IMG/VR virus record: IMGVR_UViG_3300042319_002630
Location: 1 to 44,680 of that record
Direction: 5' to 3' (one strand)
DNA from: a virus
DNA: 44,680 bases
The notes beneath the pieces were generated by a model. That model worked only from the letters and a program-made list of their open reading frames with translations, searched no databases and was not told the DNA's origin. The position numbers were made by a program, and so were the translations under genes. Positions 9,981 to 18,948 of this stretch are shown one piece after another (position 1 is the first letter of the stretch; every line of letters begins with the position of its first letter).

Positions 9981-10259
9981 ATGAACGACTTTCAATTTAT
10001 CAAAGTAAATGAAGATTCTACAATTAAAGTGGAATACAGAACAACGAATTATACCAACATTTCTAATCCCGATGGTTTAACAGGACAAGAATTGATTGCA
10101 TTTGTTTCTGAAAAAGTAACTGAACTTTCCGCTGATGATGTTTTCATTAATCCGGAAATCGATATTCTCAAAACATTGGGTATTGAACACACTATTCCTG
10201 AAATTCCTGAATTGGTTATCATGGAAATAGTAGAAACTGTATTACCAACAACAGAATGA
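9981..10259 (+). CDS. Small acidic protein, function unknown
   Basis: A 92-residue protein starting MNDFQFIKVNEDSTIKVEYR, with a run of Glu/Ile/Pro near the end (EIPELVIMEIVETVLP). It lies between the adhesin-like gene and the tmRNA gene; its stop (10257-10259) is just upstream of the acceptor piece of the tmRNA, so both may be on one transcript. It resembles the small tail-accessory proteins found after fibre genes in similar phages, but I do not recognise a family. Confidence 0.55.
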   Translation: MNDFQFIKVNEDSTIKVEYRTTNYTNISNPDGLTGQELIAFVSEKVTELSADDVFINPEIDILKTLGIEHTIPEIPELVIMEIVETVLPTTE

Positions 10260-10270
10260 ATGGTAGTAAA

Positions 10271-10324
10271 CTGATTTTTTGAAAAGTGTTTTGGACGGGG
10301 GTGCGAATCCCCCCAAGTCCACCA
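10271..10324 (+). ncRNA. ssrA: tmRNA acceptor piece (3' part, upstream in the permuted gene)
   Basis: T-stem GGGGG (10297-10301) and CCCCC (10309-10313) enclose the 7-base loop TGCGAAT. The acceptor 3' strand CAAGTCC (10314-10320), discriminator A and encoded CCA (10322-10324) follow. Upstream, TTTTTG (10276-10281) and TGTT (10287-10290) can pair with CAAAAA (10443-10448) and AACA (10435-10438) of the coding piece. This forms the long helix P2 that holds the two mature pieces together. The 5' end is approximate. Confidence 0.88.
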
Positions 10325-10410
10325 TAAGAATTTAGGTCTGCGCCGTGCGATAATGAAGATGACTAAGGGATCACGGACATCCAGATAATCTAAACCAAAA
10401 TTCTTATGAT
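10325..10410 (+). ncRNA. Intervening segment of the tmRNA precursor, removed on maturation
   Basis: About 86 bases link the CCA end to the 5' end. A long hairpin closes it: ATAAGAATTT (10324-10333) pairs perfectly with AAATTCTTAT (10398-10407), extended by GGT (10335-10337) with ACC (10394-10396) and, further in, CCGTG (10343-10347) with CACGG (10372-10376). It stacks next to the acceptor stem and presents both cut sites. Removal by RNase P at the 5' side and a 3'-end nuclease is the expected maturation in permuted tmRNAs. Confidence 0.8.
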
Positions 10411-10577
10411 GGGCTTGACTAGTTTCGACAAGGCAACAAGTACAAAAATTGGCTACTCGTCAGAGTTGACGTTAACACTAAAACAAAAATAACTGCAAAC
10501 GATGAAAAGTTCGCATTGGCAGCCTAAACGCTGACTAGGGTTTCAGTTGGTTTCCTCGTAACAGAATAACCAACTAC
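10411..10577 (+). ncRNA. ssrA: tmRNA coding piece with proteolysis tag ANDEKFALAA
   Basis: Starts GGGCTTGACTAGTTTCGAC, matching the 5' acceptor strand and D-arm-like region of tmRNA. A CGTCA/TGACG hairpin (around 10458-10471) may be part of pseudoknot 1. The tag frame GCA AAC GAT GAA AAG TTC GCA TTG GCA GCC TAA spans 10495-10527. After it AGTTGGTT (10545-10552) pairs with AACCAACT (10568-10575); its loop TCCT could pair back to AGGG (10537-10540) as a pseudoknot. The 3' end is estimated just after this stem. Confidence 0.85.
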
Positions 10578-10605
10578 ACTACACTCATCACACAAGGAGA
10601 AAAAT

Positions 10606-10878
10606 ATGAGTAACATGACACCATTCGAGATCCGTCTCGAACTTCTAAAACTTTCTAAAGACATGCTCGAACAGGAGTATATGTCTAAACGGGAAGTTGC
10701 ACATAATAACTGGCAGGTAGCTTCCGAGAATGCTCGCACTCAAGGACAACAGTTACCTAATCAGCCAGAATATTCATCATTCCCATCAGAACAAGAAATC
10801 ATCACTAAGGCACATGCTTTAAATGGTTTCGTTTCTAACATTTCTGAACCTACTACCAAGGTTACTAAGAAGTCGTAA
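10606..10878 (+). CDS. Conserved small T4-like phage protein, function unknown
   Basis: A 90-residue protein starting MSNMTPFEIRLELLKLSKDM with LEQEYMSKR, mostly alpha-helical, then a Pro-rich linker (LPNQPEYSSFPSEQEI) and a short helix ITKAHALNGFVSN. I recall close relatives in T4-like phages of cyanobacteria and SAR11, without known function. A strong ribosome-binding site (AAGGAGAAAAAT) precedes the ATG, which is only 28 bases after the tmRNA coding piece, so the two may share a transcript. A hairpin follows the stop. Confidence 0.7.
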   Translation: MSNMTPFEIRLELLKLSKDMLEQEYMSKREVAHNNWQVASENARTQGQQLPNQPEYSSFPSEQEIITKAHALNGFVSNISEPTTKVTKKS

Positions 10879-18940: not shown

Positions 18941-18948
18941 TATAAATA
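18941..18948 (+). promoter_or_regulatory. T4-type late promoter for gene 48
   Basis: TATAAATA at 18941-18948, 23 bases ahead of the ATG of gene 48, inside a 35-base divergent gap between gp4 and gp48 genes. No -35 box is needed for gp55-dependent late transcription. Likely drives the long plus-strand baseplate operon. Confidence 0.75.

Follow-up and report, generated by a model that had tools for sequence, protein, structure and literature searches.

The 44,680-nt stretch of viral DNA analysed here, referred to as a whole as the window, comes from a T4-like myovirus and, at positions 10262-10587 on the + strand, encodes a tmRNA that is circularly permuted and made of two pieces. A permuted tmRNA in such a phage is already known in kind, and the window gene is a further member of that set; its novelty lies in the 86-nt spacer between the two pieces, which fell inside the coordinates of the first-pass annotation of this DNA and outside its claim. 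We consider it likely that the locus is a working permuted tmRNA gene of the phage and that its spacer carries cargo.

The permuted tmRNA gene and its phage

The first-pass annotation, made from the letters alone, had proposed a permuted two-piece tmRNA and suggested ARAGORN and covariance models as checks, and both bore it out. ARAGORN called a permuted tmRNA (tmRNA*) once in the window, at 10232-10618 (+), with the tag ANDEKFALAA*. In Rfam, RF04321 (tmRNA_permuted) matched 10262-10527 with 138.3 bits (E 3.4e-27) and RF01850 (beta_tmRNA) matched 10204-10587 with 126.7 bits (E 2.2e-38), both over the full model length and above the gathering scores, the curated cut-offs being 47 and 84 bits, respectively, and lower-scoring clan matches being dropped. 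RF01850 was the best among the older permuted clade models and exceeded its cut-off, and no one-piece tmRNA model won at the locus.

The permuted order can be read directly, since the T-arm and acceptor 3' piece precedes the tag-bearing 5' piece, as in members of RF04321. The 3' piece (~10262-10324, +), delimited by ARAGORN and by the RF04321 and RF01850 alignments, consists of the P2 3' strand, the T-arm at 10297-10313 (loop TGCGAAT, in which 10303 is the G of position 55), the acceptor 3' strand CAAGTCC at 10314-10320 (U70 at 10318), A73 at 10321 and an encoded CCA at 10322-10324. The 5' piece (10411 to ~10587, +; ARAGORN and Rfam) starts with the acceptor 5' strand GGGCTTG at 10411-10417, followed by the D-loop and the mRNA-like region, in which the tag frame ANDEKFALAA-stop (GCA...GCC TAA) occupies 10495-10527. 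GGGCTTG and CAAGTCC pair over seven bases, with G10413-U10318 as the alanine wobble G3-U70. The pairing, the wobble, A73, the encoded CCA and the tag had all been described before in these terms, and they hold in the sequence, with ARAGORN agreeing on the tag.

The earlier annotation had also stated that no second T-arm and CCA follow the tag, and none was found 3' of it in the sequence, by ARAGORN or by either covariance model, so that the arrangement of the one-piece family RF00023 is absent. A one-piece tmRNA whose downstream T-arm had gone undetected can be set aside with near certainty: no point speaks for it, the sole T-arm lies upstream, and the gene stops at the Shine-Dalgarno sequence (SD) of the following ORF. 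Because at least 198 viral contigs (at least 186 unique sequences) share the arrangement and the acceptor arms compensate, the window arrangement is not due to chance; over the at least 186 unique viral sequences, the 7-bp acceptor stems were compensatory across 22 arm pairs. A degenerate or decoy tmRNA that tags nothing and interferes with host trans-translation is highly improbable. Phage DS6A does have a tmRNA-like gene that lacks a CDS and whose expression in E. coli inhibits the endogenous tmRNA (cited in the available text of PMC11915505), but in the window the tag and stop are intact, CCA is encoded, G3-U70 is present, the acceptor is paired and the covariance models match at full length, and acceptor, tag, CCA and G3-U70 are all kept in the viral relatives.

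The assignment to a T4-like phage, likewise part of the first-pass annotation, is backed by matches of the tail tube cap, baseplate wedge, hub, gp32-like SSB and gp59 helicase loader to T4-type PHROGs, and the relatives of the window proteins are from myophages of Synechococcus, Vibrio, Pelagibacter and others. The genes for gp59 (12209) and gp32 (13370) lie downstream of the tmRNA. The gene that directly follows (10606-10878, +) encodes 90 aa without a PHROGs match; the same slot holds a late-transcription accessory gene in the phages Mosig and Melnitz, and homology of the 90-aa protein to that of Mosig was rejected, as the two gave no alignment. The T4-type late-promoter-like motif ATAAATA stands directly upstream of structural genes at 18942, 24947, 30485, 38350 and 41715 and is overall rarer than chance in the window; a promoter scan showed no excess. 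Because the motif scan of the window found no ATAAATA between 8135 and 18488, the tmRNA probably does not belong to the late genes.

Maturation of two-piece tmRNA by RNase P and 3' maturation, followed by alanylation and SmpB binding, is established. By this route, the acceptor stem, most of CCA and the spacer ends of the single transcript would fold into one long helix, host RNase P would cleave before G10411, and host 3'-end enzymes would release the CCA end at 10324. The product would be two base-paired pieces, 3' (~10262-10324) and 5' (10411 to ~10587), and given these predicted cuts the intervening sequence at 10325-10410 should be absent from the mature tmRNA. The product would be charged by the host alanyl-tRNA synthetase through G3-U70 and loaded onto stalled ribosomes by host SmpB, whereupon ANDEKFALAA would tag broken proteins for degradation. 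Host SmpB is the likely partner because a search of 13 viral records for SmpB found none (control positive in 10 of 14 genomes); these records are fragments, which makes the absence weak evidence.

Permuted tmRNAs in other phages and in bacteria

One claim of the first-pass annotation failed, namely that a permuted tmRNA inside a T4-like phage is rare or undescribed. According to the available text of PMC9004378, 53 of 133 phage tmRNA structures are two-piece, 50 of these 53 being aquatic, and the T4-related myophage Melnitz (a Methylophilales phage) carries a two-piece ssrA, with a predicted glutamine riboswitch, immediately ahead of the gene for a transcription coactivator. Furthermore, the annotated SsrA of Pelagibacter phage Mosig EXVC030M (MT647606, Kyanoviridae) is permuted by both ARAGORN and Rfam. 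Scanning viral contigs for a DNA pattern gave matches in at least 120 contigs, and among the matches listed ARAGORN called 100 permuted and 1 standard; all 19 tmRNAs near gp32 relatives were permuted. Altogether, further permuted tmRNAs were present in at least ~190 viral contigs. The tmRNA DNA of the window had neither near nor distant matches in cultured phages.

Mosig SsrA resembles the window gene in being a permuted tmRNA of a T4-like phage (RF04321, 93.6 bits) close to genes for a PD-(D/E)XK nuclease, gp59 and gp32, and in combining G55 with A18. It differs in being alpha-type (RF01849), in its tag GEDNFALAA and in its short spacer (~45 nt), which lacks the core found in the window. The Melnitz tmRNA and the 53 structures counted in PMC9004378 are likewise two-piece and come from aquatic, T4-related phages; however, the tmRNA of Melnitz is alpha-type, and spacer cargo like that found here is not described in the available text of that paper. 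The bacterial beta-type permuted tmRNA (RF01850) shares with the window the order of the pieces and a similar tag (ANDERFALAA in L581 and L612), and it is rare in Pseudomonadota, exceeding the cut-off in 1 of 299 genomes. The beta type of the window tmRNA at most suggests a betaproteobacterial source.

Position 55 of the T-loop and position 18 of the D-loop covary in the viral sequences, as A18-G55 or G18-U55 and almost never mixed (L002-L300, L301-L420). In the gp32-retrieved set the two combinations occurred 9 and 10 times without exceptions, and in all viral sets A18-U55 occurred zero times and G18-G55 seven times. In the window, A18 (10421) pairs with G55 (10303), within this lineage-wide covariation. 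The covariation is also seen in bacterial tmRNAs, and permuted genes of the Caulobacterales type are often G18-G55. In another viral contig, some 20 tRNA genes are packed closely together near a permuted tmRNA (L209:1952-7379).

The intervening sequence and its conserved core

The intervening sequence (IVS) of the window, 86 nt between CCA and the acceptor 5' strand (10325-10410, +; sequence and Rfam), is about twice as long as the IVSs of the sampled bacterial permuted tmRNAs, which are simple hairpins of 25-43 nt. Among the at least 185 unique viral spacers listed, which came from scans not targeted at spacers, the median length was 73 nt (range 4-342 nt) and 131 were at least 60 nt long. 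The two ends of the window IVS form a terminal helix, 10323-10337 with 10394-10408 (+), which is continuous with C75-A76 of CCA and shows double changes in 8 of its 15 pairs. Between them lies a conserved core, an RNA of about 60 nt (10335-10396, +; GGUCUGCGCCGUG...AUAAUCUAAACC), recognized by its recurrence and conservation. Its helix CCGUG/CACGG (10343-10347 with 10372-10376) carries a compensatory C-G to U-A change in 3 of 21 sequences. A possible pseudoknot, GAUG/CAUC (10358-10361 with 10378-10381), pairs throughout in 20 of the 21 sequences and shows no covariation; it is unproven because it is nearly invariant. The covariation of the terminal and CCGUG/CACGG helices was observed directly, with 50 double-change cells against 19.2 in shuffled and at most 6 in slid alignments (21 distinct sequences), and invariant loop residues lie inside this covarying frame.

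The core was found in 36 viral contigs by one half-core pattern and in 60 by another, independent pattern, and all half-core matches in viral contigs sat in a tmRNA spacer, between CCA and acceptor. Its conservation is likewise plain: over 105 pairs, a set biased by members retrieved through the core pattern, mean pairwise identity was 0.96 for the core vs 0.79 for the 3' piece and 0.74 for the first 150 nt of the 5' piece. In another cluster, in which five members, all but one, came from T-loop or gp32 searches, the values were 0.93 vs 0.75. No core RNA was detected in 399 Pseudomonadota genomes, the positive control in viral records being detected, and the IVS alone gave no real match against phages and plasmids. 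Rfam, searched with the whole locus at E up to 10, returned only tmRNA models and chance matches, with no relevant ribozyme or riboswitch. Folded by itself, the window spacer was not exceptional (z -1.43), and the data did not establish a general excess of H-type pseudoknots among non-coding spacers (mean z -0.58). A protein-coding role of the window spacer was rejected: its only ORF has 11 codons (MKMTKGSRTSR) and no SD, and every codon position is conserved.

We think that the window spacer is probably functional cargo. The excised 86-nt spacer would carry a conserved structured RNA, selected separately from the tmRNA, which may be stable after cutting and functional. Should the spacer instead be neutral filler that joins the ends of an ordinary phage permuted tmRNA, its core would have been conserved through recent recombinational spread. 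Some tmRNAs with no more than 60-64% identity to each other do share spacers that are 96-100% identical, and one hybrid (L536) combines a different 3' piece with a window-type spacer and 5' acceptor, whereby one acceptor pair becomes G-U. Against this, the few differences in the core are partly compensatory (GGU/ACC to GGC/GCC, CCGUG/CACGG to CUGUG/CACAG) and compensatory changes accompany the divergence of the outer helix, suggesting age plus selection, and the spacer ORFs of other phages have dN far below dS. We therefore regard neutral filler as unlikely. Cassettes that spread horizontally in recent times could account for part of the core conservation. Three further loci (L555, L557, L560) join a window-type spacer to a T-loop of the alpha type (GGCGGTA) found in alphaproteobacterial tmRNAs, and this mix is a sign of recombination.

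The core might also act in cis, as an aptamer, protein site or ribozyme that times cleavage of the precursor into its two pieces, a reading to which we give a modest chance, short of favouring it. It fits the invariance of the loop residues inside the covarying frame, the position of the core exactly between the two predicted cut sites and the glutamine riboswitch predicted at Melnitz ssrA. However, Rfam offers no riboswitch or ribozyme for the core, and the slot holds ORFs or other RNAs in other phages, so that no single regulator is needed for processing.

Spacers of related phages

In the favoured explanation of a separately functioning cargo, the slot would be filled in related phages by other small RNAs or by genes for micro-proteins. 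The spacer of many relatives starts with TAAGGA or AAAGGA, a start codon follows a few bases later, and the ORF runs to a TGA just before the acceptor G1 or stops shortly before the acceptor. The combination of SD, start and long ORF was found in 24 of the 131 spacers of at least 60 nt, against 2.84 expected and a maximum of 9 in 200 shuffles. Loci with small ORFs filling the spacer, the SD directly following CCA, include L171, L216, L071, L248, L076, L053, L110, L103, L024 and L289. Among the products are transmembrane peptides of 21-24 aa (L289, L487, L519, L224), a 38-aa family (L103, L280, L464), a 52-aa family (L053, L485) and a PGDYG-domain protein (L171; PF14083, 27.8 bits vs 27). Selection on these ORFs is directly visible in dN/dS values of 0.019/1.384 (L289/L487), 0.216/2.048 (L053/L485) and 0.071/0.506 (L103/L280); judged by dN far below dS, the spacer ORFs of other phages are under protein-level selection.

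As read from the sequence, the SD of the spacer ORFs pairs with the spacer's 3' end, and translation of the ORF and folding of the precursor should therefore compete. In two pairs of loci, L234/L298 and L005/L065, the spacer core is 100% identical and the mature tmRNA 61%; near-identical spacers in different tmRNAs are the pattern expected of exchangeable cassettes. Tentatively, with confidence short of even, we propose that phage tmRNA spacers are a general cargo site, holding a ~60-nt RNA in the window and, in other phages, micro-protein mRNAs whose SD would be locked in the spacer helix.

If true, this would be a natural cargo slot from which a second gene product is freed by tRNA-type processing rather than splicing, and in which micro-protein translation and tmRNA folding may compete. 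Many phage small RNAs and micro-proteins would gain a fixed address, at which cargo is easy to locate because the tmRNA flags it, and the slot would offer a reason for the persistence of permuted tmRNA genes in phages. Related cases are a tmRNA with a group I intron and a permuted tmRNA whose IVS contains tRNA-Ala (PMC11915505), in which the extra element is removed at maturation, as predicted here. The group I intron, however, sits in the tmRNA T-loop and self-splices, whereas the window element sits in the IVS and would leave by tRNA-type processing. The available text of PMC11915505, a tmRNA database paper, mentions one tRNA-Ala and one repetitive element as the only elements in permuted spacers and makes no mention of ORFs there, and earlier reports of such ORFs are possible.

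Rfam searches of eleven loci with other spacer types returned only tmRNA and tRNA. The spacers of L045, L085 and L236 encode an Oxidored-like domain (PF09791, 38.2 bits for L085), with no in-frame ATG, GTG or TTG start visible. The 144-nt spacer of L205 contains a T-arm-like sequence, GGTTCGATTCC, and might hold a tRNA within the IVS.
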